A stretch of 64,000 bases of DNA, from positions 1 through 64,000 of the forward strand of contig JACPYP010000011.1 in NCBI GenBank assembly GCA_016195985.1, in the 5' to 3' direction. The position numbers were made by a program, and so were the translations under genes. The notes beneath the pieces were generated by a model. The model saw only the letters and a list, made by a program, of their open reading frames with translations. It did no database searches and was not told where the DNA came from. Shown piece by piece: positions 320 through 13,886 of this stretch (positions within the stretch are counted from its first letter, which is position 1; each line of letters begins with the position of its first letter). The stretch comes from Acidobacteriota bacterium (lineage in GTDB: Bacteria > Acidobacteriota > Holophagae > Holophagales > Holophagaceae).

Positions 320-1114
320 CTACTTGATTTGATGGGGGTGGATTGGAAAAATGGCCGTTTCATCCTCCCCACAATGTTTGGCCAACAAATCGATCCACTC
401 CTGAGCCTTTATCAAGTCTTGTGTTAATCCAATTGATGGTTTGCCATAAATGTACGCATTACATACCAAATGAAGCGAAGTGCAGTTCCCTTTGAGGGCT
501 TGCGCCTTTACCAATTCAAATCCTTCCAATTTTTCAGAGATGGACTCTCCATTATGAAAAATTGTCAGGGCCAATTCGAGGGGGGCATCGGGGTGACCTG
601 CTTCGGATGCGCGACGAAGCCAATAAATTCCGTCCTGAAATTTGGCGATCTTCATTTTTTTAAATGTCTGCATTTCTGAACCGAGCATGTACATGGATTC
701 CACATCCCCTTCCTGGGCCCACGAAAGTAGGCGCTCGTGAGCCTGTTTGATCCGGTCCTTGTGGCTCAGAACCCCTGGTGCAAGCATGGGTCTAGTTCCA
801 GAAGGGGCGATCGCGGGTGCCTCTTCCTTTGCAAGCCTAAAGAGCGCGGGTCCGTACCCTAGTTCTGCCGATTTAGATAGCCACCTTCGATATTCCTCTT
901 TACTTAGTGTCGGGGATTTTTTCAAAACTTGGAACATGGCCCGAGGATCACCTGATTCAGCTTGGTGGCGAACTTGGGCCAATTCTTGGGAGGATGCATT
1001 AGGAAGTCCCTTGCTCTGTGCCTGGACAGGCCCAACGGCCAAAATCATTAACACCGTGGCCAAACCTAACTTCAGATTGAACAGATATCGCTCAAATGCC
1101 AAATTCGTCGTCAT
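320..1114 (-). CDS. Exported Sel1/TPR-like repeat protein
   Basis: A protein of about 264 residues. The chosen ATG (complement ends at 1114) follows a GGAGG site and begins MTTNLAFERYLFNLKLGLAT, then a hydrophobic stretch ending VGPVQAQ: a plausible signal peptide with cleavage after AQA/AQS. The mature part holds Sel1-type helical repeats: a G-DP/DV-x-A/S-M-x-x-L pattern recurs (AESGDPRAMFQVL, AQEGDVESMYMLG, SEAGHPDAPLELAL). Sel1 repeats usually mediate protein contacts, often in the cell envelope. The start lies one base after the stop of the giant upstream gene, so the two are translationally coupled and perhaps functionally linked. No catalytic motif is seen; the exact role is unknown. 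Confidence 0.7.
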   Translation of the reverse strand: MTTNLAFERYLFNLKLGLATVLMILAVGPVQAQSKGLPNASSQELAQVRHQAESGDPRAMFQVLKKSPTLSKEEYRRWLSKSAELGYGPALFRLAKEEAPAIAPSGTRPMLAPGVLSHKDRIKQAHERLLSWAQEGDVESMYMLGSEMQTFKKMKIAKFQDGIYWLRRASEAGHPDAPLELALTIFHNGESISEKLEGFELVKAQALKGNCTSLHLVCNAYIYGKPSIGLTQDLIKAQEWIDLLAKHCGEDETAIFPIHPHQIK

Positions 1115-1115
1115 T

Positions 1116-4100
1116 TCAGTAGGCCTCCATTTTCCCTTGGGGAAGGATGTGGATGTGGCTGTCATGACCACCACTGTTATCAGGTTTTATTGAATCTTTA
1201 ACCCCTTGTGTTTGATCCCATTCACCCAGAGGAACGGTGTTCCCATCCATCAGATCTACTTGGAATTCAGTGAGGTCCAGATTTGCTCCTGGCCGGTCCG
1301 TGACTCCATCCCAAAGTAAGTCCCGAACGGCGGAATGGAATACGGCATCGGTGCTGAAAATATAAGTGTTTGTGGGCTGGTCATATACTACATTGCTATC
1401 CCTAAGGTAAAATCCTGAGCCAATGTAACTACCATCCGCTTTCCAATTTGTGGTGGTAACTGCCGCTAATCGGTCCAATCCTTGACGCGCAGAATAGATC
1501 CAGGCTGCAAGTTTTGTTTTTGCAGGTCCACTCACTGCTGGGTCTGTATTCAGTGCCTGATTGAAAATTCCTCTCACCGTCGAATCCATGAAAACCGTTC
1601 CCGATTGGCTTGGGTTTCCATTCGCCAATGCAGGTGCGAGTTCCCTGTAGCCCATGTGGTAGATGTCGAATGCCTCTCCTCTTAGGTGTTCGGCATGGTG
1701 AGGAGTGTTCCGCCCATGTTCCAGGGTAATTTCGTTGACAGGCCCAAGCAGGGTTGCATTATTCACCGAGCCAAGGGCGCTCGCATTTCCCATCACCCAA
1801 GAAAGCATCGCCGCGTTGGTCTGCATCTTTACCAGGGGACTTCCCAATCCAAAGGTGTAGGGCATGAAATCTCGTGCGTTATAGGTCGGCACTAAGTTCG
1901 TTGCCCCAGAGGAGTTGAAATCCAGGTACTGATTCACCTTGCCCTCGAATGTGTACCAAAGACGGAAGCTATAGGCCATGCGTCCATCAGGGGCGGGAAC
2001 CAGATTGACCCCGGAAGGTGTACCGTCAGGCCCATACACAACTACCCTCCCATAGGGAATCTGCGATGGTTGCGTCATGGTTACGCGAACCTTGTAATAC
2101 AGATACTTATCCAAATCAATCCAATTGGTCGCCGTCAGCCATGCTAGGCGGGTGCTTTCTCGGCTGGCTTCGTTGGGGATGGAAGACGCCGAAAATCCAT
2201 CCAAAGCGTTCTGCTGTGAATCGTACTCCACATGGGTGGGATTCCTTGGATTGGAGTCCAGGAAAAAGGTGCTCGATGTCGCCAAGGGTTCTGGGGATGT
2301 CAGAGTCCCAAGGACATCCTGCACATACTCGTCTTGATGAAGGTAATCCACATAGAACCGGAGCCTCACAGAGATCCCCGTCACCTGGCCTTTCCCCGGC
2401 ATGCTGTCCTTTGGAACACGGAGCACATAGTAACGATGCCGCCGATTGACATCCCCCTGCATCGGGATAGAGATCCGGGCCTTGGCGGGACGACCATTCC
2501 CGTCGAGACAGGCTTTGAGAGTCCCTCCCGAATATTGAAGCGCGGGCTCCTCAGGATATGTTTCAATCTCGCCACCAACATTGACTACGCCAAATACTGT
2601 GGTCGATGTTGTTGAGGATGTGGTTGCGGCAGCCGCATTCAGTCCCCGATTAGCGGCCAATTTCAATTTCCCACCACCACCCATCAGCGAAGCCTGAGCA
2701 GTGGGTGCATCAGAGGTGATCTGAATTCCGGTGATAAACACATTCCCGTCTGGCTGTAATGCCAACTTTGGATCTTGGAGCCCATAGCCCAAGTCATCCA
2801 TGACGCGCCAGGTATTGGTGTCGGGATCGTAGAGTTCTGTTTCAGTCGGGAATCCCTTCTGATAGGCCGTGCCTGATCCATCCATGGTTTGGAAGGTGAA
2901 CCCACCCACCACAAGCACCTGGCCGGTGGGAAGAAGCAGAGAGGCGTGGCCTGATCGGGGCCATTTCATGCTCGCGGCTGCGGTGAAGGCATTGGTCTTC
3001 GGATCGAAGATTTCCACCGTGTTTGTAGGAGCGTAGTAATCATTCCCATTGATATGCGCCACTGCGGTGGAGGCACCCCCGGCGATGAGTACGCGTCCAT
3101 CCGCGAGGGTTGTGGCGGTGGCAGCCGCCCGTTTATTAATCATTTGGCCGACCGGCGTAAATCCGGACTGCGGATCATAGAGGGTGGCGCTGTTATCAAA
3201 ATTGGCGTCAGGCGTTGGGGGCAGAGGGTATTGCCCGATCCACCCGCCCAAGAGAAGGGCCCTTCCATCCTGCAGGGTCGTTGCGGCGGCATCCTGCCCG
3301 ATTCCCAAATAGGAGCCAGGAACCGCAAGGTTCGGAAGCCCGATGCCAGAGGTTGAGAGGGCGCTGAATAGCCCACCGACTGAATCGAAGAGCGTCACAG
3401 TGCTATGCGCAGCATCCGGCGCATCTCCTCCCGCCAAAATGGCTTGTCCATTCCCTAATGAGGCGCTTGTTCCGGCGACGTGATATGCCCTGGCCCCCAT
3501 CCAGCCCGGAACGGGTAAATCCACTGATGGGCCTGGAAGGTTTTGGAATGTTCCACTCACTGGGTCATATACCTGAGCAAAAGGCAGAGGTGTCCATGTT
3601 GTCGGAGCGGGTAATGCATCATTAGACCAATGGCCCACCCCGTTGGCAATAAGCACACGGCCATCCTTCAGCAGTGTGGCCGTATGGCCGCTGCGACCTG
3701 CCGAAACAGACATAGAAATAGCCTGCCCCTTTTCATCTATGACAGTGTAGTGGGTTTCCACCATCGATCCGGTGGGTGAAAAGGTTTGAGTGCCAGGGTC
3801 ATAGAGGTAGCAATCACTCCGATAATTGGCGCCATCCCAGCCGCCCGCGATGAGGATCTTGCCGTTCGGAAGAGCCGTGACCGAATAGCCTTCCCTTTTC
3901 AGGGCGGCCGGCGCTTTGTCCTCAAGGGTATCGACGCTCGATGTGACGATCACGGCGGCGGAGCCCTGGTATGCGCCGTTCGCGAGGCTGGTTGCCTTCA
4001 CCTCGTAGGTTCCAGGACGGGTAGCGACAAAAACACCTTGAGAATCGATGGCGGCTTTGGAATCTGTGGCGACGCTCCAGGTGACGGACTGATCGGCCAG

Positions 4101-7100
4101 ACCGAACACGGTGGCGTTGAAGGCCTGGTAGGTCCCCGACCGGACCTGGCTGAGGCCCGGAGTCACCCGGACGCCATTCATGATGGGTGTCACCGGTGTC
4201 GCAGGTGTGAGGGGACCTCCGCCGTTCGAGTTGATCACAACGACGGCCGCGCTGGCCGTGACGGCGCTATCGAGGTTGCTCACCCCTTTGACCGTGAAGG
4301 CTCCCGTGGTGTTTGGGGCCTTGTAGATCCCATCCGGAGTGATGGTTCCTCCATTGGGTTCGACGACGCTCCAGGCAATGCCCCCGGCTGTCGCTGCGGA
4401 CTGGAACTGATAGGAGCCCGAGACACCCAGGACAACCCGGTTCGGTGCGATCAAAATGCTGGGCGGTCCAACCACCACGGTGGCCGAGGCCGTCACCGTG
4501 GGGTCGAGGTTGCTGGTCAAGACCACAGTATAGGTTCCGGGTCTGGCGGGCGGAGAGAAGCGGCCATCCGCTTGGATGGTTCCTCCACCTGGAGCTGACC
4601 ATGCCACGCCTCCGAAGGTGGCACTGCCTGTGAATTGAAACGACCCTCCAATGTTCATTTCCAGGTAGTCGGGGACAACGCTCAACGAAAGAGGCGTCAC
4701 GAAAACCTGCGCATGGGCGGTCAGGCCAGGGAACTGAATGCTTTCCACGACGATCTGGTCCGTCCCCACCTGATCTGGCGCGGTGTAAATGCCATCCGGG
4801 GATATGGTGCCACCGGATCCTCCAGGAAGAACGCGCCAATTAAACAGCTGGTCGGTGGTTGTATCCAAGGCAGCCGAGAATTGAATCCGGCCACCCGGTT
4901 TGACTTTGGTGGTTTCGGGAGAAATGCTCAATTGCGGCATCTTCAACACGGTCACAGTGGCGGAGGCGGCATGACCTCGTCCGTCTGTGGCCTTAAGCAG
5001 ATACGTTCCTTCGCGATGGGCGAGAAATACACCGGAGGCGGGGTCGTAGGTGGCATTCGGAGAATCCAAACTCCAGCTGAGCGCGTCCCCGGCCTGGCAT
5101 GACCCTCTGATGATGATTGGCGTATCAATGGTTGTCTGCGACTTAAACGGAGTGATCGTGATGTCGTATGGATAGGTGAATGCGAAAGCGGTACCTGGCT
5201 GCATTGACTGAGTGGAGTAATCAAACGGCCCGATTTCCGGCCAATAGATTTGCCCGTTTTGAAGCAGGGTGGAGGCAACAAAATCCGTAAAACCGACCTG
5301 GGGCTTAAAAACACTGTTTACGACGACGGCGGGGGTTTCCATGGAAAGGAATTCGTGCGTGCTCGGATCGTAATATTGTGTGTCATTGGTATCAGACCAG
5401 CCCATCTCACTTACGAGACTGATGAGCCCGTTGGGGAGAGCATGGGCATTCAAGAGGCCGGCCCCATTGACATGGGCTCTTGAACCCTTCAGCTGTGTCA
5501 AGCGGTTTGCCGCCGGGTCGAATTCAGCGAGGGGAAATACCCAAGGGGTGCCTCCATCGGATGATCGGGCCATATAGAAAAAGAGCACATGGCCGTTCTC
5601 AAGGAGAACAGGATAGCCAGGGGAGGCGTTGGCGCCGGTGAGGTAAGCGAGGTCCAGCCAAAGCGGGTCGAGGCTTGCGCCACAAATCAAATCCTTGAAA
5701 TCGCCAATGACTTGAAAGGAATTATTCGATGGATCAAACACCTCAAGGGCGGTCGGCCGAGAACCTATCGGGTCGCCTTGGGGCAATGATATGCCGCCAG
5801 AAATGAGAACGCGGCCATCCTGGAGCAAGGTGGCAAAGTGCTGCATGCGCGGAACCGATATTTGACCAGGCAGCAACTGCCAAGGTGACGATGCTCTTGA
5901 ATTAGGCATGGATGTCACTGCCTTCGGGTCGAAAATCCAGCCACGCGCGGTGGTGGTTCTGGGGTGAAGCCACCCATTGCCTCCTCCATGACCTGGAACT
6001 TGCCCGCCCATGATCAGTATGCGTCCGTCCCGAAGGGTGGTGATTGAGTTTGAGACCATGCGCTTGTCGGGTTCGGAAACATCGAGGAAGGCCTGGCGCT
6101 GCGGGTCGAACAAGTACCAGGCGAAAGACAGTGGGGGATCTATCTCGCCGGTTATGTACTCGCCACCTCCAACCAGCGCCCTGCCGTCGGGAAGCGCGGC
6201 AGAAGCGGGGTTGGCAAGGTTTCCGGAACATGGGCCTGCCACCACGGTGGAAATGCCCGTCTTCGGTTGGAACACGTTGGCAAGCAAGCGCTGACATTGA
6301 TCATTGGACCCCGATTCTGAGGCCTGAATGATCTCGCCGTTGGAGATGGTAATGGATTGATTGGTGATAAACCCAAACTCGTCAGTGACAGTCAGGACAA
6401 ATGTCCAGGTTTGCCCCGCCGGAACCTTAATCGGCGCACCGCTAAGGACCGGGCCGATGCCATGATCGATCGTTCCGCTCCCATGGCTGAATTCAGGCAG
6501 GAGGGTCACACTTCCATCGCCTGAAACCGTTGATCCGGTGGCCGCGAAACGTTGAATGGAGGGTAAGGCTGGATTGGTGTAGCTGACTCCGAATGAAATG
6601 ACACGTCCATCCGGACTTAAAACTGAACTGGGGATCGCGTGGTTTGGAGCGACTGGACCGATTTTCGACACTAGGCCGGGCAAGTAGACCGGCATATATA
6701 CCGATTTTGAAACGCTGACTCCATAGTCATTGGTCACGGTCAGGACATAGGTCCTGCTGCCTCCTGGCGTGACGGGCAGCGATGTTCCACTCTGAACGCG
6801 GATGGGCGCCCCGTTCATTCCGGATATCACGCCTGTGCCGTTGGAGAAGACAGGCAACAGATTGAACGAGTCGCCGAGGCCAATCCTGGGGAGATCCGCC
6901 GTGAAGGATGTGATGGTGGGGCGAAGGATGTCAACCACAGCGCTGCTGTAAGAGTTGCCATATTCGTTGGTGGCGATTAAAAAATTGACACCATCCTCGT
7001 TCGGAAGCGCTTGCAGGCTTGATTGTCCGGTTACATTCATGCCGTTGACCACTAAGGTGGCGGCTCCGCTCACAATCCAATTAAAGCTGATTTCCCGTCC

Positions 7101-10100
7101 TTCCAATACTTGGGTTGGACTTGCGCTGAATGATTCAATCGTGGGCGCTCCTGGATCATTCACAGAAATGATCGCAATGGCGACTTTGCTGGGATCCGCG
7201 TTGCTCGCGGCTTGAATTCTATAGATGCCGGAAAAAACTGGATGAAAGGTCGCTCGGTTGTCTTGTGAGCTCAGGCTTTCGGATCCCCAATCGTCGATGG
7301 ACCAAGACACGCCTTGGTCTTCGGTACCGCTCACTTGGGCCGTAAAACTTCGGCTTTCGCCCACCAGCATGGTGGCATTGGTTGGAGTGATGGATATGGA
7401 AATGAGCGGATTGGCTGCATTCACCTGAACGGTGGCCGTGCCTGTCCGGCTGGGATCCCTTGGACAGGTGGCGGTTACGAAGTAGATCCCGGGAGCCATT
7501 GGAGCCAGGACATTCCCATAGTCAACGCTGCCCGTTCCATCCGAGATGCTCCAGGCAACCTGCGGGCCTTCTCCTCTTGGGTAGACCGGCTCTCCACCCA
7601 GCGTGGCTTTCAGGAGGCAGGTGCCGCCAGGGCTGAGATACACCTTTTCTGGAATGACGGCTACGGCATCGAGATCGGATGGCGAAACAATGATCGAAAG
7701 CTCTTTCGCGGTCTGCAACCCGGTTGGGCCCGTGACGGTCAGGCGGAATGTCATCGATGATCCCGGCTCGACCACCACGGGAGAACCGCTGGAAACAGAG
7801 CCGACTCCCTGGTCAATGGAACCCGCTCCGCCCGAGAAAAGAGCTGTCAGTGTTGTCTTGCTGCCAGGTTCGATGGAGCTCTTCGAAACGACAAAAGCCT
7901 TGATCTCAGGCGGTGTCGAAATGGCGACGGTCCTGCTGCCGTGAAGCGCGATGCCGTCTGCATCCGTCACGGTGCACTCAATGACGGCCTCATTTTGCGC
8001 CAGGACGGAGAAATGAATGGAGTTGGTGCCATTTCCGCTGACGATGGTCCCTCCGCGAACCATCCAGGCGTAGGTGCAGCCTGCTTGAAGCGGGACACTC
8101 GCGGTGATGTCGGAACTTCCAGGCAAAGTCCAGTCCGGCGCGGAAATCGTCGAATTGGGTCCAACTTTAATCGTCAGCTCCGAGCTGGCGGCGCTGCCGA
8201 GTGCATTGGTTACCGTGAGCTTATAGGTAGTCGTTTGGCTGGGGGACACTGTCACGGGGACGTCGCTGGTGATCGGTTGCGAACCGGGCTCCAGGATCCC
8301 CGTGCCGCCGGTGTAGGTCGCGGTGATCGTGGTACTCGCCCCATGACCGATGGTGCTCTGCGCGGATGAAAAACCGGAAACGGCTGGCAGTGGGATGGAC
8401 TGGATGCTTTTTACACCGGTAACGGTTTTCTGGAGCATGTTCGTCACGACACACTGAGCCTCCATTGTTCCAGCTGCGCCTGCGATGAAGGTCATCTGGT
8501 TGCTGGTCGCCCCGGATGCCATGGTGCCGCCCGTCAGGCTCCAGGAATACGTGCATCCCTCCTGCGCCGGCACGGAAAGTGCCATGCCCGCGCTCCCACT
8601 CTGAACGATGTCGGGGCCAGTGATGACGGCGATAGGTGAAGGGACCACGGTTACGGTCGTGGACGCTGAAGCGGTGCCAGCCACGTTGTTGGCCGTAAGC
8701 GTGTACGCCTTCGTGGCAGCAGGGGTCACGACTCTCGACGACCCTGTGACCGGTCCGATTTCATTGATGTTCAGGTCGGAGGCGTTCGAGACGACCCAGC
8801 TCAAGTTGACGTCTTGGCCAGGAGAGACGGAGGTTGGCGTGGCGGTGAAGCTGACAATGACGGGCAGGGCTGGGGCGGAAGCGGGGGTGACGAGAATGCC
8901 TGTGCTGGTGGATTTGGTTGGATCATCAACGGCCGAGGCGCCGATGATGTGGACTTCGTTTGGGGTCGTGACGGACGCGGGTCCGGTCGGGATATAGGCG
9001 CCGGGATTGGCTCCATTCGATGCCATCACGCCCCATACGGAGATCCAGGATGATCCGTCGCCAGCGTATGAAAGCGTGCCAATCGACTTGGCGGCCATGA
9101 CCATCAGGGTGGTGGCCGCAGGCGAGGGAAGCGCGTTCCCGGTGACCAAAGTGATGAACCAGAACCCGATCTTATGGTCCACGACACTATAGTTTTTCAG
9201 CCCGGAGGGATTGGTCAATGTGCCGGTCGCCGGATTGAAGTATATGGATGGGTTCCCGCCTGAAGCCCATGTCGATGAAGAACCTGTGAATTGGAACAGC
9301 ATGATCCGGTTCTGAAGCTTCGGAACCCATAGGGTTGCTACGAGACTCCCGTCGGGTGGTGGAAGCAGTTCTTCGGAATTCTGAATGCAATGAAGGCCGT
9401 TGGTCGTGGACTCTATGACATGGCAGAGCGTTGATTTGCCATCGGGCGAAGGAAATCCGCCCATGACGTTCGAGACACCCGTCCTTTGCCATTGGGTGGA
9501 TTGAGTCAGGTCTTCCGAGAACGGGATCAAATTCGTGTGGCTTGCCAGTGTAAGGGGAGGAAGGTATTTCCCTTCTGCATTGATCGTTCCCACCGATGAA
9601 TGACCGCCGCTGATTCCATCGACATACCAAGAGGTGGAATTCGTTGCCCCGCCCGTCACCGTGGTCGAAAACTGAACACTGCTGTTTGATGGGATTGTCG
9701 GGTTTGAAGGATTAATGGGTTCAATGGCCAACGGTTGGGATGATATCGACACAGATGTTGCTGCCGTCTGGCTTCCTTGGGCGTTGGTTGCCACGAGCGT
9801 ATAGGTTGTATTGGAGCTTGGAGAGACCACTCGCGATGTCCCCGTGACGGTCCCAATTCCGGAAATCGTCAAACTTGTCGCGTTGGCTGTCGACCAGCTC
9901 AATGTCGTGCTGCCGCCTGGGTCTACGGTTGGAGGATTGGCGACAAAACTGGCGATGGATGGCAGCGGCGAATCAGAGACTGGCTCTACGCTGATGGTTG
10001 TGCTTGCGGATTTTGCTGAATTTTCTGTGGAAACCGCGCTGATGATGTGGATCTCCCGGGCCGTTGTCACTGCCGTCGCGCCGGTCGGGATATAGGCTGC

Positions 10101-10985
10101 TGGAACCGTTCCATTGGATATCATCACTCCCCAAACAGATATCCAGGACGAGCCATCGCCAGCATATGAAAGCGATCCGACCGACTTGGCGGCCATGAGG
10201 ACCAGGGTCGTGGTCGCGGGGGCAGGCAGGGCATTGCCTGTAACCAATGTGATGAACCAAAAGCCGGTTTTATGATCGACGGCAGTATATGTTTTAAGCC
10301 CAGACGGATTGCTGAATGCTCCGGTCGTGGGATTGAAGTAAACGGCGGGGTTGCCACCCGAAGCCCAGGTTGAAGCAGAGCCTGTGAATTGAAACAGCAT
10401 GCTTCGGATTTGGTTTTTTGGCACCCAAAACGTCGCGGCAAGGCTTCCGTTTGATGGTGGTTGAATATCCTCTGAATTCTCAATGTAATGAAGATCATTG
10501 GCCTTGGATTCAATGACGTGGCAAAGACTGGACGTGCCATCGGGGGATGGGAATCCGCTTGTTATATTTAGTATGCCGGTTCTCGGCCACTGGGATGATT
10601 GAGTCAGGTCTTCCGAATAGGGGCACCCGTTCGTGTGGCTGGCGAGTGTTGAGGGCGCGACATAGGTTCCGGAATTGTTGATGGTCCCAACGACAGGATT
10701 CCCGCCAGGGACACCGTCCACCATCCAGTTCACACCGTTCGTCACCCCACCGCTCACCGCAGCGGAAAAGCCTCTTGAAGTCCCCGGATAAATGGAGGTA
10801 TTCGCGGGAGCCACTGAATCGACACTGACCGGGGGCGGCCCACCCTGTAGTGCAGTTACCAGACCAATCAGGCTGAAAGACCAGGGAAGGATGCAGTGCA
10901 GGAATAAGAGTCCCATTTTTATCGACCCCAATCGCGTGATGCGGCATAGATGCTGATTACGGGGCATGGCTGGCCAGCGAAACAT
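1116..10985 (-). CDS. Giant exported Ig-like/Kelch protein with C-terminal LAS (M15-like) peptidase signature
   Basis: A 3289-residue protein. The start is the ATG whose complement ends at 10985, seven bases after AGGAG; a TTG two codons earlier is less likely. A hydrophobic segment near residues 24-48 (MGLLFLHCILPWSFSLIGLV) acts as signal or anchor. Approximate order: two copies of a 366-residue unit (50-780; an Ig-like fold plus a tryptophan-rich jelly-roll-like part), several bacterial Ig-like domains (780-1550), a first Kelch/galactose-oxidase-like propeller (1560-1940; DGRxLIxGG repeats), four Ig-like domains (1940-2345), a second Kelch propeller (2360-2760), then a 500-residue C-terminal region. 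That region carries HLRGEAFD (about 3100) and HDSHIHI (about 3275), matching the HxxGxxxD and HxH zinc ligands of LAS peptidases. Likely surface-bound or secreted; substrate unknown. Confidence 0.75.
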   Translation of the reverse strand: MFRWPAMPRNQHLCRITRLGSIKMGLLFLHCILPWSFSLIGLVTALQGGPPPVSVDSVAPANTSIYPGTSRGFSAAVSGGVTNGVNWMVDGVPGGNPVVGTINNSGTYVAPSTLASHTNGCPYSEDLTQSSQWPRTGILNITSGFPSPDGTSSLCHVIESKANDLHYIENSEDIQPPSNGSLAATFWVPKNQIRSMLFQFTGSASTWASGGNPAVYFNPTTGAFSNPSGLKTYTAVDHKTGFWFITLVTGNALPAPATTTLVLMAAKSVGSLSYAGDGSSWISVWGVMISNGTVPAAYIPTGATAVTTAREIHIISAVSTENSAKSASTTISVEPVSDSPLPSIASFVANPPTVDPGGSTTLSWSTANATSLTISGIGTVTGTSRVVSPSSNTTYTLVATNAQGSQTAATSVSISSQPLAIEPINPSNPTIPSNSSVQFSTTVTGGATNSTSWYVDGISGGHSSVGTINAEGKYLPPLTLASHTNLIPFSEDLTQSTQWQRTGVSNVMGGFPSPDGKSTLCHVIESTTNGLHCIQNSEELLPPPDGSLVATLWVPKLQNRIMLFQFTGSSSTWASGGNPSIYFNPATGTLTNPSGLKNYSVVDHKIGFWFITLVTGNALPSPAATTLMVMAAKSIGTLSYAGDGSSWISVWGVMASNGANPGAYIPTGPASVTTPNEVHIIGASAVDDPTKSTSTGILVTPASAPALPVIVSFTATPTSVSPGQDVNLSWVVSNASDLNINEIGPVTGSSRVVTPAATKAYTLTANNVAGTASASTTVTVVPSPIAVITGPDIVQSGSAGMALSVPAQEGCTYSWSLTGGTMASGATSNQMTFIAGAAGTMEAQCVVTNMLQKTVTGVKSIQSIPLPAVSGFSSAQSTIGHGASTTITATYTGGTGILEPGSQPITSDVPVTVSPSQTTTYKLTVTNALGSAASSELTIKVGPNSTISAPDWTLPGSSDITASVPLQAGCTYAWMVRGGTIVSGNGTNSIHFSVLAQNEAVIECTVTDADGIALHGSRTVAISTPPEIKAFVVSKSSIEPGSKTTLTALFSGGAGSIDQGVGSVSSGSPVVVEPGSSMTFRLTVTGPTGLQTAKELSIIVSPSDLDAVAVIPEKVYLSPGGTCLLKATLGGEPVYPRGEGPQVAWSISDGTGSVDYGNVLAPMAPGIYFVTATCPRDPSRTGTATVQVNAANPLISISITPTNATMLVGESRSFTAQVSGTEDQGVSWSIDDWGSESLSSQDNRATFHPVFSGIYRIQAASNADPSKVAIAIISVNDPGAPTIESFSASPTQVLEGREISFNWIVSGAATLVVNGMNVTGQSSLQALPNEDGVNFLIATNEYGNSYSSAVVDILRPTITSFTADLPRIGLGDSFNLLPVFSNGTGVISGMNGAPIRVQSGTSLPVTPGGSRTYVLTVTNDYGVSVSKSVYMPVYLPGLVSKIGPVAPNHAIPSSVLSPDGRVISFGVSYTNPALPSIQRFAATGSTVSGDGSVTLLPEFSHGSGTIDHGIGPVLSGAPIKVPAGQTWTFVLTVTDEFGFITNQSITISNGEIIQASESGSNDQCQRLLANVFQPKTGISTVVAGPCSGNLANPASAALPDGRALVGGGEYITGEIDPPLSFAWYLFDPQRQAFLDVSEPDKRMVSNSITTLRDGRILIMGGQVPGHGGGNGWLHPRTTTARGWIFDPKAVTSMPNSRASSPWQLLPGQISVPRMQHFATLLQDGRVLISGGISLPQGDPIGSRPTALEVFDPSNNSFQVIGDFKDLICGASLDPLWLDLAYLTGANASPGYPVLLENGHVLFFYMARSSDGGTPWVFPLAEFDPAANRLTQLKGSRAHVNGAGLLNAHALPNGLISLVSEMGWSDTNDTQYYDPSTHEFLSMETPAVVVNSVFKPQVGFTDFVASTLLQNGQIYWPEIGPFDYSTQSMQPGTAFAFTYPYDITITPFKSQTTIDTPIIIRGSCQAGDALSWSLDSPNATYDPASGVFLAHREGTYLLKATDGRGHAASATVTVLKMPQLSISPETTKVKPGGRIQFSAALDTTTDQLFNWRVLPGGSGGTISPDGIYTAPDQVGTDQIVVESIQFPGLTAHAQVFVTPLSLSVVPDYLEMNIGGSFQFTGSATFGGVAWSAPGGGTIQADGRFSPPARPGTYTVVLTSNLDPTVTASATVVVGPPSILIAPNRVVLGVSGSYQFQSAATAGGIAWSVVEPNGGTITPDGIYKAPNTTGAFTVKGVSNLDSAVTASAAVVVINSNGGGPLTPATPVTPIMNGVRVTPGLSQVRSGTYQAFNATVFGLADQSVTWSVATDSKAAIDSQGVFVATRPGTYEVKATSLANGAYQGSAAVIVTSSVDTLEDKAPAALKREGYSVTALPNGKILIAGGWDGANYRSDCYLYDPGTQTFSPTGSMVETHYTVIDEKGQAISMSVSAGRSGHTATLLKDGRVLIANGVGHWSNDALPAPTTWTPLPFAQVYDPVSGTFQNLPGPSVDLPVPGWMGARAYHVAGTSASLGNGQAILAGGDAPDAAHSTVTLFDSVGGLFSALSTSGIGLPNLAVPGSYLGIGQDAAATTLQDGRALLLGGWIGQYPLPPTPDANFDNSATLYDPQSGFTPVGQMINKRAAATATTLADGRVLIAGGASTAVAHINGNDYYAPTNTVEIFDPKTNAFTAAASMKWPRSGHASLLLPTGQVLVVGGFTFQTMDGSGTAYQKGFPTETELYDPDTNTWRVMDDLGYGLQDPKLALQPDGNVFITGIQITSDAPTAQASLMGGGGKLKLAANRGLNAAAATTSSTTSTTVFGVVNVGGEIETYPEEPALQYSGGTLKACLDGNGRPAKARISIPMQGDVNRRHRYYVLRVPKDSMPGKGQVTGISVRLRFYVDYLHQDEYVQDVLGTLTSPEPLATSSTFFLDSNPRNPTHVEYDSQQNALDGFSASSIPNEASRESTRLAWLTATNWIDLDKYLYYKVRVTMTQPSQIPYGRVVVYGPDGTPSGVNLVPAPDGRMAYSFRLWYTFEGKVNQYLDFNSSGATNLVPTYNARDFMPYTFGLGSPLVKMQTNAAMLSWVMGNASALGSVNNATLLGPVNEITLEHGRNTPHHAEHLRGEAFDIYHMGYRELAPALANGNPSQSGTVFMDSTVRGIFNQALNTDPAVSGPAKTKLAAWIYSARQGLDRLAAVTTTNWKADGSYIGSGFYLRDSNVVYDQPTNTYIFSTDAVFHSAVRDLLWDGVTDRPGANLDLTEFQVDLMDGNTVPLGEWDQTQGVKDSIKPDNSGGHDSHIHILPQGKMEAY
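8640..10765 (-). repeat. Tandem duplication of a 1098-bp unit inside the giant gene
   Basis: Two in-frame copies of about 1.1 kb. The landmark TTGAGTCAGG occurs at 9501 and again at 10599, a spacing of 1098 bases or 366 codons. The peptides share long stretches such as SEDLTQS, ASGGNP, GFWFITLVTGNALP and YAGDGSSWISVWGVM. The high identity at both DNA and protein level points to a fairly recent internal duplication. Confidence 0.9.
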
Positions 10986-11241
10986 CGCCAACTCCTAATG
11001 GGATTGAATTTTTTTGGGCTTGTGCAAATCAATCTACACGCATTCCAGGGGCAAAGCCTATATTGCCTTCCGCATCAGTTAGCGAAGTTCCCGTGAATGG
11101 TGCGTAAAGATCGGTCGAACGGTAAGTTGATCTAATCACTCGGGAATGAAGTCTGATTGCTTATGAGGCCACCAAGGGCGGATTTGAGGCAGAGCGGATG
11201 CTAGATTCGACCTGGGTTTTGAGCGCCCCGTTTAGGTCGCC

Positions 11242-13128
11242 TCACTCCAGCGCCAGCACCTCCAGCCGGGAGGGCAGGGCTTTGGATCGGTAGACTCGCT
11301 GTTCGGCTTTCTGGAAGGCTTCGGGCGGGGCCTTGGGGATGTCGCAGAAGGTCTGGGGGTTGCGATCCGCCAGGGGGAACCAGGAGCACTGGATCTGCAC
11401 CATGAGCCGGTGCCCTTTCTGGAAGGTGTGGAAGATGTCCGGCAGGGTGAAGGCCACTTCCGTGGGCTTGCCGGGGACGAAGGGTTCGGGGGATTGGAAG
11501 CTGTTGCGGAATTTCCCCCGGAGGATGTCGCCGCGCACCAGCATCTGGGCGCCTCCGGCGTGCCAGCCTTCGGGGGAATCCTTGGGATCGGGGGCGTCGT
11601 CGGGGTAGACGTCGATGACCTTCACCACCCAGTCGCTGTCCGTGCCCGTGGTGCTCACCTGGAGCACGGGCCTCAGCGGGCCCGCCAGGGTGAGGTCCGC
11701 CTCCAGGGGCGCGGTCTCATAGACCAGCACGTCGGGCCGGCGGGAGGCGAAGCGCTGATCCTCGGCCATGAAGGCGGTGGAGAAGCCGGAGGTGATTTCC
11801 TGCGTGTGGGGCACAGGCCGCGCGGGATCGCTGATGAAGGCATCGAAGGCGGAAGGGGCGCCCGGTCCGACATCCGGCTTGACGCCGCTAAGGCGGCCCT
11901 GGGCTTCCAGGTAGAAGGTGCGGGGCTGGGCGGTGCGGGGTGGCCAGGCGTCGAAGGCGCGCCATTGGTTCTTCCCCGTCTCGAACACCGTGGCCTTGGG
12001 CAGGGGTTGGCCCGATTCTCCCTTCAGGTGCTGGTTGAAGAAACGCAGTTCGACTTCCTGCTGGAACCAGGCGGAGGTCTTCGATCCGAACTCCAGCGGG
12101 CCCAGCCGGTCGCCGTCTCCGCGGGCCCAGAGGCCATGGGACCAGGGGCCCATGACGAGGTGGGAGGTGGTTCCGGGGCTTTGCCGGGTCAGCGTCTGGG
12201 CGCAGGCCAGGGCCCCGAAAAGATCCTCCGCGTCGAACCAGCCTCCCACGGTGAGCACGGCCGGCTCCACCTGCTTCAAGTGGGGCCGCAGGTCGCGGGC
12301 CTGCCAGTAGGCGTCGTAGGTGTGGTGCCGGAGGTATTCCTCCCAGATGGGGTCGGCGGGCTGGCCCATTTTCGGGAAGACGGCCTGCACCGGCCCCGCT
12401 TCCAGGAACCAGCGGTAGTCGTCGGGAGGGCGCTGCGGGGGCGGCAATGGCAATGGCGGTGGCGTGGGCGACGGCGTGGACGGCCGGCTGCGGAAGAAGG
12501 TGAAGAATTCGGCGTTGGCCAGCAGTTGGAAGGCGCCGCGGTGGTAACTGTCATCCCCTTCCCAGAGATCGATCATGGGGGCCTGGGGAGAGACGGCTTT
12601 GAGGGCCGGGTGGCCGCAGAGCAGGGCCTGGGCGGCATAGTGTCCGGGATAGCTGATGCCCCACTGGCCCACGCGCCCGTTGTGGTTGGGCACGTTCGCC
12701 AGCAGCCAGGCGATGGTGTCGTAGGTGTCCGTGGCCTCGTCCGTGTCGCGGGGGCCCTTGGCGGGATGGTGGGGCCGGGCGTCCATGAACTGGCCTTCGC
12801 TGCGCGAACGGCCCCGCACGTCCTGGTAGACCACGATGTAGTCCTCCTTGGCGAAGGCGGGGGAAGGGCCCACCCCGCGCCGGTAGGCGTCGGGTCCGTA
12901 GGGCCCGGAGCCGTAAGGCGTGCGCGACATGAGGATGGGATGAGGGCGGCTGGTGTCCCGGGGTTCGTACATGGAGGTGAACAGCTTCACCCCGTCACGC
13001 ATGGGCACCATGGCCTCGCGCTTCCGGTAGCGGGCCTGCACCAACTCCGGAGCGTCGAGAATCTTGGGCGCCTGGGCGCCGAGCACAAGGCAGGCCAGTG
13101 GAACCGGCAGGAACCATCGCATGGACAT
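11242..13128 (-). CDS. Exported CocE/NonD-family serine hydrolase (S15-like)
   Basis: A protein of 628 residues. The start chosen reads MSMRWFLPVPLACLVLGAQA, a signal peptide, with GAGG five bases before the ATG; an upstream ATG would add 22 unlikely residues. The alpha/beta-hydrolase core contains VPMRDGVKL near the N-terminus, the nucleophile motif GISYPG, VGGWFDAED for the acid and MGPWSHG for the histidine, all in family order. The C-terminal half is the jelly-roll domain of X-Pro dipeptidyl-peptidases and cocaine esterases. A proline-rich stretch at 12440-12480 (PTPPPLPLPPP) interrupts the cap region. It probably hydrolyses amides, esters or peptides in the periplasm; the substrate cannot be told. 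It is a single gene, divergent from queE. Confidence 0.88.
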   Translation of the reverse strand: MSMRWFLPVPLACLVLGAQAPKILDAPELVQARYRKREAMVPMRDGVKLFTSMYEPRDTSRPHPILMSRTPYGSGPYGPDAYRRGVGPSPAFAKEDYIVVYQDVRGRSRSEGQFMDARPHHPAKGPRDTDEATDTYDTIAWLLANVPNHNGRVGQWGISYPGHYAAQALLCGHPALKAVSPQAPMIDLWEGDDSYHRGAFQLLANAEFFTFFRSRPSTPSPTPPPLPLPPPQRPPDDYRWFLEAGPVQAVFPKMGQPADPIWEEYLRHHTYDAYWQARDLRPHLKQVEPAVLTVGGWFDAEDLFGALACAQTLTRQSPGTTSHLVMGPWSHGLWARGDGDRLGPLEFGSKTSAWFQQEVELRFFNQHLKGESGQPLPKATVFETGKNQWRAFDAWPPRTAQPRTFYLEAQGRLSGVKPDVGPGAPSAFDAFISDPARPVPHTQEITSGFSTAFMAEDQRFASRRPDVLVYETAPLEADLTLAGPLRPVLQVSTTGTDSDWVVKVIDVYPDDAPDPKDSPEGWHAGGAQMLVRGDILRGKFRNSFQSPEPFVPGKPTEVAFTLPDIFHTFQKGHRLMVQIQCSWFPLADRNPQTFCDIPKAPPEAFQKAEQRVYRSKALPSRLEVLALE

Positions 13129-13217
13129 GGATGCCTCGGGGGAAAGATCGATGCTGCCACAGGGACCGGATTCTTGGGAAGCGCCGTGGGACAATGCCTG
13201 GGAAGGGGTTCTAGGGC

Positions 13218-13886
13218 ATGAAGTTCAAGGTCAACGAGGTATTCCACAGCATCCAGGGAGAGGGCGCGCGCATCGGCCGGCCCTGCCTCTTCATCCGCCT
13301 TTCGGGATGCCCTTTGCGCTGTTCGTACTGCGACACCGAGTACGCGTTCTACGAGGGGACGATGCGCGGCCTCGACGATCTGCTGGATGAAACGAGGCGG
13401 CGCCTGGGGCCTCCGCGGAAGGGACCCAATGCGCCCTTCGTGGAGGTGACGGGCGGCGAGCCGCTAGCCCATCCCCAGGCGCCGCAACTGCTGCAGGCCC
13501 TGCTGGACGAAGGCTACGAGGTGGCCCTGGAAACCGCGGGCAGTCATGATCTGGCCCCGGTGCCCCGGGCCGTGGTGAAGATCGTGGATCGCAAGACCCC
13601 CGGCAGCGGGGAAGGGGAGCGCTGGCTCGAGGGCAACCTCGATCACATGGTGCCGGGCCAGGACGAACTGAAGTTCGTTCTCTGCGACCAGGCGGACTAC
13701 GCCTGGGCCAAGGCCTGGTGCGCCGAGCGGGCCGTCTGGGACCGGCTGGAGGTGCTCTTCAGCCCCGTGTGGGGCAGCCTCGATCCCGCCTGGCTGGCGG
13801 AACAGGTCGTGGCCGACGCGCTGCCCGTGCGGGTGCAGGTGCAGCTGCACAAGGTGATCTGGGGCGTCGACCGCAAGGGCGTGTAG
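13218..13886 (+). CDS. queE: 7-carboxy-7-deazaguanine synthase
   Basis: A radical-SAM enzyme of 222 residues that converts 6-carboxy-tetrahydropterin to 7-carboxy-7-deazaguanine in queuosine and other 7-deazapurine synthesis. The N-terminus has EVFHSIQGEGARIGRPC, the QueE hallmark, followed by the iron-sulfur cysteines in CPLRCSYC (residues 31, 35, 38; the CxxxCxxC spacing of radical SAM proteins). VTGGEP, the SAM-binding glycine motif, lies near residue 76. The length is normal for the family. No other queuosine gene is in the window. A purine-rich GGAAGGGG about ten bases before the ATG can serve as ribosome binding site. Confidence 0.93.
   Translation: MKFKVNEVFHSIQGEGARIGRPCLFIRLSGCPLRCSYCDTEYAFYEGTMRGLDDLLDETRRRLGPPRKGPNAPFVEVTGGEPLAHPQAPQLLQALLDEGYEVALETAGSHDLAPVPRAVVKIVDRKTPGSGEGERWLEGNLDHMVPGQDELKFVLCDQADYAWAKAWCAERAVWDRLEVLFSPVWGSLDPAWLAEQVVADALPVRVQVQLHKVIWGVDRKGV

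Follow-up and report, generated by a model that had tools for sequence, protein, structure and literature searches.

A MepA-like metallopeptidase tip and its Sel1-like partner gene at the end of a giant Kelch/Ig protein from Holophagaceae: a candidate polymorphic-toxin-like system

Main finding

The giant Kelch/Ig protein encoded at one end of the window (the whole stretch of 64,000 nucleotides of Holophagaceae DNA here analysed) ends in a domain that carries the paired His/Asp motifs of LAS-type zinc-peptidases. The motif is real, and its observation is confirmed. When the neighbouring genes and the relatives of the protein are also considered, we lean, with little more than even confidence, towards this tip being the exchangeable effector of a polymorphic-toxin-like system, in which it would act as a MepA-like zinc enzyme and a Sel1-like gene would block its own tip type. 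Toxicity, immunity and delivery are inferred parts of this proposal. It rests on the combination of a swappable tip, a tip-specific partner gene and an array of displaced modules, which points to a polymorphic toxin with immunity. The preliminary description of the protein as a giant surface-anchored cleaving machine omits this neighbourhood, that is, the exchangeable character of the tip and the partner gene specific for it.

Results

The giant protein and its C-terminal motif pair

The features referred to throughout are the following.

1116..10991, minus strand: giant Kelch/Ig protein, a single unbroken ORF with a TTG start, 3,291 aa
2607..3350, minus strand: end of the Kelch body, with Kelch stretches, common to relatives of either tip
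1119..1859, minus strand: MepA-like metallopeptidase tip (LAS-type by motif), residues ~3045-3291, from the 8-sequence alignment A5 and hhalign
about 1665..1700, minus strand: motif 1, H3098 x3 H3102 xx G3105 xxx D3109, invariant in 8/8 sequences and alike in E. coli MepA
1149..1166, minus strand: motif 2, H3276 xx H3279 x H3281, invariant in 8/8 sequences; HRAHMH in MepA
320..1174, minus strand: Sel1-like repeat gene with a signal-like N terminus, which shares bases with the last part of the tip ORF; its Pfam match to Sel1 (E 6.6e-5) stays under the cut-off

The protein is two residues longer than the 3,289 first given for it, while the motif pair does lie within its last 200 residues: HLRGEAFD and HDSHIHI start at residues 3102 and 3276, their separation of 174 agreeing with the earlier figure of ~170. 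Its N terminus looks, by eye, like a Sec-type signal. Pfam strongly supports the Kelch motifs (Kelch_6, E 2.3e-25), in line with the Kelch propellers described before, whereas support for the many Ig domains is thinner, with one I-set match (E 2.3e-9) and two Big_2 matches (E 1.8e-5). NCBIfam additionally places a GTA/phage head spike fiber domain twice in the protein, the better match (residues 118-311, E 4.1e-31) sitting close to the N terminus.

Neither Pfam nor NCBIfam detected TPS, PAAR, VgrG, Hcp, LXG or WXG domains in the giant protein, nor any other known domain of T5, T6 or T7 delivery. Its last 510 residues gave no Pfam or NCBIfam match at E <= 5 and none among PDB sequences at E <= 10. 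The gene upstream of the giant ORF has by eye the look of a CocE-type hydrolase and not of a transporter. On the other side, position 1 of the window is the start of contig C18, 319 bases past the end of the Sel1-like gene, so anything further downstream of this gene is out of view.

Conservation of the motifs

The residues of HxxGxxxD and HxH are the zinc ligands of LAS enzymes. Passages of PMC3927764 and PMC6403190 agree with these roles. Alignment A5, made of eight divergent sequences, has 15 invariant columns, including both histidines, the glycine and the aspartate of motif 1, a tryptophan, an arginine and the three histidines of motif 2. The full pattern Hx(2-3)HxxGxxxD ... HxxHxH is thus kept in all eight relatives, from Geothrix to Luteimonas and Pseudoalteromonas, the His-His spacing of motif 1 being one residue longer in three of them.

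Such short motifs might in principle arise by chance, and 20,000 composition shuffles were therefore made of the whole protein and of its last 330 residues. HxxGxxxD occurred in 21% and 5.6% of them, respectively, and HxxGxxxD followed by HxH in 0.8% and 0.3%, while the full pattern was found in none of either set. The bare motif is only mildly unlikely by chance, and it is its conservation in 8/8 sequences that carries the case. A chance occurrence would be compatible with that 0.8% and with the lack of a fold match, but the full pattern is absent from 20,000 shuffles and the eightfold conservation refutes the explanation in its simple form, which leaves it scarcely credible.

Conservation also bears on whether the domain could have lost catalysis and now be a module for binding or adhesion that zinc stabilises. 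Hedgehog proteins contain a LAS-type domain of this non-catalytic kind. The four members of the Geothrix branch show only 20-26% identity to the first row of A5 and contain large insertions, and in one copy EN replaces EH upstream of motif 1, as might be expected of such a module. On the contrary, the putative zinc ligands and the extra histidines are kept in 8/8 sequences, and even a displaced tip end (described below) retains HxxHxH, making a Hedgehog-like role very improbable.

Relation to MepA and the M74 family

Escherichia coli MepA reads NGGHASHQTGLDVDIF at the first motif and, further on, HRAHMH, and one relative (L037, the same as L071) has NIGHQTHDRGVDIDMF and HNSHIH. Both the M74-type forms, HxxHxxGxxxD and HxxHxH, and the LAS forms, HxxGxxxD and HxH, are present in all eight members of the alignment. 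The tip family was compared by hhalign with 297 E. coli ORFs, spurious ones included, from four 49-kb stretches picked for mepA, mepK, ddpX and mepM. MepA ranked first with a score of 33.9, the runner-up having 23.7, although its match spans 17 columns only; DdpX (M15D-type), with the same motif, was 6th, MepM (M23-type) 89th and MepK 240th.

Other comparisons set bounds to this likeness. An M74 set of 13 sequences was assembled from E. coli MepA and 12 others, after 8 of 20 loci had been dropped by a filter of ORF length and M74 motif; the 12 were thus selected by HxxHxxGxxxD, and motif counts among them are not independent. HxxHxH is present in 12/12 of these further proteins. Against this set the tip family gave a local alignment only, of 44 columns at 38% probability, no global one being obtained. 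The Pfam M74 model (PF03411) matched 3/8 members at E <= 10, the best with 18.9 bits and E 0.0012, and its gathering cut-off of 25 bits was reached by 0/8; the window tip itself did not match it, and in L073 it was outscored by the model of a Tn3 transposase (E 2.8e-4), an unrelated protein. Considering the sub-cut-off scores, the 17-column match, the local-only alignment and the better transposase model, we describe the domain as MepA-like and LAS-type by motif, and not as M74. The zinc-peptidase assignment proposed earlier is thereby upheld at the sequence level, by the motifs in 8/8 members and the first rank among 297, but its M15/lysostaphin part is not, M74/MepA being the closest.

M74/MepA is treated as a family of peptidoglycan endopeptidases in the excerpted text of PMC6403190, and the motif pair being nearest to it speaks against a toxin tip that cuts proteins and not peptidoglycan. 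Such a protein-cutting tip would fit with the alternative tips of related bodies, which are zincin-like (HExxH by eye) and presumably cut proteins; moreover, passages of PMC3482391 report zincin-like peptidases as the tips of polymorphic toxins. Overall, we judge it improbable.

Predicted fold

The preliminary description had proposed a structural model as a check on the LAS fold. The models did not confirm this fold: that of the window tip is unusable (pLDDT 41), while that of a relative (with Luteimonas as the first sequence) reached pLDDT 71 and pTM 0.72, with residues 47-60, at motif 1, under 50. With this second model, whose least certain part is motif 1, Foldseek returned no PDB or BFVD match at E <= 0.001. 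The best rows in VIA were acetate kinase (Z 4.0, an unrelated fold) and acetyltransferases; LAS chains were absent among the rows shown, which is no evidence of a differing fold. A search of PDB sequences with the A5 profile gave an antibody chain (E 1.4) as its lone match, which was discarded.

Distribution of the tip

With the window tip as query, matches were found in 3/77 genomes of the family, its own genome counted, and the same three were recovered among 396 genomes of the phylum. They contain the four copies of the Geothrix branch, namely that of the window, one on contig C8 of the same genome (L010), one in an uncultured Holophagaceae genome (L011, the same as L069) and one in Geothrix fermentans DSM 14018 (L012, the same as L070). 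A profile search added two further distant copies within the phylum. Scanning genome contigs with the single window sequence gave zero matches; the alignment-based scan found five, adding Luteimonas terricola and Pseudoalteromonas neustonica. The family is rare also around these two, the centre genome being the sole match among 200 and among 295 genomes of the respective orders.

Among phages and plasmids, tblastn detected no close relative of the tip, viral contigs held no confirmed one, and all matches in PHROGs had E >= 0.11. A faint match (E 0.04) was seen on contig C7 of G000, and another, in G030 (E 0.001), was set aside, the genes around it being ordinary by eye.

In the assemblies, two of the four MepA-like copies, those of contig C8 (L010) and of contig C34 of G007, are split by frame. 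In L010 the reading frame shifts within the Kelch region (13132-13267), leaving the body and the MepA-like tip in different frames. The Geothrix fermentans copy, one of the two split, consists of ORFs of 630 aa and 1,807 aa (L012 3166-3212). The Pseudoalteromonas relative (L073 3410-6257) is likewise covered by two overlapping ORFs. Near the Holophagaceae copy, a DRT2-type defence reverse transcriptase is encoded (L011 966-2321, minus strand; PADLOC Drt2, E 2.5e-144), a neighbour that may point to an island of defence or conflict genes.

As far as can be judged by eye, no partner gene stands beside the relatives L038, L071, L072 and L073, which do not have the Kelch body. Thus, the tip domain also exists outside the system and need not be a toxin. 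These partnerless relatives, in other Acidobacteriota, Luteimonas and Pseudoalteromonas, would be expected if the protein were a hydrolase, secreted or on the surface, with which the cell feeds, preys or remodels its own envelope, the partners then being helpers such as chaperones, inhibitors or regulators. The same explanation is favoured by the giant protein having no known delivery domain and by Sel1-like repeats being presented, in passages of PMC7108748, as general binding modules. It is the arrangement of tips and partners described next that makes us regard it as rather unlikely.

A shared body with two types of tip

The end of the Kelch body (2607-3350) has counterparts at seven places in 5/77 family genomes, all with E <= 3.3e-36, the next match having E 2.6e-19. 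Four of the seven bodies carry MepA-like tips, and three (L025, L026 and L027) carry zincin-like ones, recognised by eye from an HExxH-type pattern; Pfam gives reprolysin for one of these three, L025, below threshold. Compared in steps of 50 residues, the window protein and L011 are 47-69% identical over residues 2292-2791, which belong to the body end, and 14-44% past them, the drop being less sharp against L012. In G059 a fragment of the body end stands alone, with a transposase nearby by eye. Shortly behind the zincin-tipped copy of L025, an IS21-like transposase and helper genes are seen by eye (11944-13652, minus strand).

Base composition changes along the locus as well. The GC content is 0.521 in the window tip, 0.488 in its partner and 0.571 in the body, compared with 0.654 over positions 12001-64000 of the window. 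The tip has lower GC than the body at 4/4 MepA-like loci; among the zincin-like copies a clear drop is found in two of three, L026 being the exception. Reduced GC is thus seen in most of the tips and partners.

Partner genes switch together with the tips

Each of the four MepA-like tips is followed by a Sel1-like gene whose N terminus looks, by eye, like a signal, the two ORFs overlapping in all cases; in the window, the Sel1-like gene has a likely internal ATG one base past the stop codon of the tip. The Pfam scan for Sel1 covered four of the six Sel1-like genes, leaving out L010 10627-11724 and 9343-10320, and the cut-off was exceeded by one of the four. Behind the three zincin-like tips lies a separate, unrelated family, whose members match one another with E 2e-17 (L026-L027), 5e-13 (L025-L027) and 3e-4 (L025-L026); the L027 partner, ORF 11460-12161, was left out of the Pfam scan.

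At E < 1e-100, the Sel1-like partner family comprises six genes confined to 3/77 genomes, those with MepA-like tips, and generic Sel1 proteins begin at ~1e-19 in the same search. The model was built from these same six genes, and the 3/77 association ignores kinship; the weight therefore rests on the absence of the family elsewhere, including the zincin-only genomes G012 and G065.

L010 contains three Sel1-like genes in succession. The second is 52% identical to the C8 partner and lies behind a tip end that shares 60% identity with the C8 tip. The third, with 71% identity to the partner in the window, lies behind a tip end that shares 57% identity with the tip of the window and retains HDNHMH. 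Hence the orphan modules are two extra partner genes, each behind a type-matched remnant of a tip end, no full-length orphan tip being seen in L010; past the array lie more tip fragments, of two types.

The partner type switching together with the tip type, in 4/4 and 3/3 loci, and an array of extra partners with displaced tip ends are poorly explained by housekeeping helpers of a hydrolase. For the polymorphic-toxin-like system, the Sel1-like gene of the window is the probable cognate immunity gene of its tip.

Discussion

In the polymorphic-toxin-like system here proposed, the Kelch/Ig stalk, exported through its putative Sec signal, would display the tip outside the producer. A histidine, an aspartate and a further histidine would hold zinc in the tip, assisted by additional histidines as in LAS enzymes such as MepA. 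With a working MepA-like zinc site, the tip would most likely cleave the peptides that cross-link a rival's cell wall. The signal-like start of the partner suggests a periplasmic placement, where a peptidoglycan-cutting tip would act, and the Sel1-like protein in the periplasm of the producer might thus block its own tip type. Related stalks would bear zincin-like tips with the other partner family, and displaced tip ends with their partner genes would accumulate as an array. Zinc, the peptidoglycan substrate, the periplasmic location, the passage of the outer membrane and the entry into a target cell are all parts of this scheme that we infer.

More tentatively, and with slightly less than even confidence, Holophagaceae may harbour a previously undescribed class of polymorphic toxins, with Sec-exported Kelch/Ig stalks on which murein-cutting MepA-like tips and zincin-like ones are swapped by recombination, a periplasmic immunity family for each tip (Sel1-like or the other one) and no known injection machine. 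The literature searches made here listed no report of such a toxin system, including for Geothrix together with toxin and immunity protein. If the proposal holds, the toxin repertoire would gain a stalk type without known delivery machinery, a MepA-like enzyme and a Sel1-like family of periplasmic immunity proteins, in Geothrix and relatives, and the question is raised of how a Sec protein of several thousand residues would cross the outer membrane and reach the periplasm of a neighbour. A word of caution also follows, since by its motif alone the protein would have been judged a surface protease, and it is the neighbouring genes that alter the reading.

Comparison with known systems

The tip shares with M74/MepA (PF03411) the order GHxxHxxGxDxD and then HxxHxH. 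Unlike that family, it forms, in Geothrix and its relatives, the C-terminal end of giant proteins with many domains, has longer insertions there and stays below the Pfam cut-off.

Sec-dependent polymorphic toxins, some with beta-propeller repeats, as well as zincin-like tips are described in the excerpts of PMC3482391, which mention neither MepA nor D-Ala-D-Ala. The HExxH-type tips on three related bodies, assigned by eye, resemble the Tox-MPTase zincin-like toxin domains of the same excerpts. For the partner there is a precedent in Sel1E, which passages of PMC7108748 present as the immunity protein against VgrG4 of the Klebsiella T6SS, a Sel1-repeat protein encoded downstream of its toxin. 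VgrG4, however, is described there as a T6SS spike toxin acting via reactive oxygen, whereas the tip here is metallopeptidase-like and its partner is weakly Sel1 by Pfam.

CDI, Rhs and MafB systems (PMC3482391, PMC3150448) also combine a common body, exchangeable C-terminal tips, tip-specific downstream partners and a partner array with remnants. The L010 array in particular resembles the orphan cdiA-CT/cdiI modules described for CDI in PMC3150448. In contrast to CdiA/CdiB, a TPS domain was not found in the giant protein, and its upstream gene is by eye no CdiB-like transporter. In contrast to CDI, Rhs and MafB alike, this putative toxin is carried on a Kelch/Ig stalk with, by eye, a Sec-like signal only.
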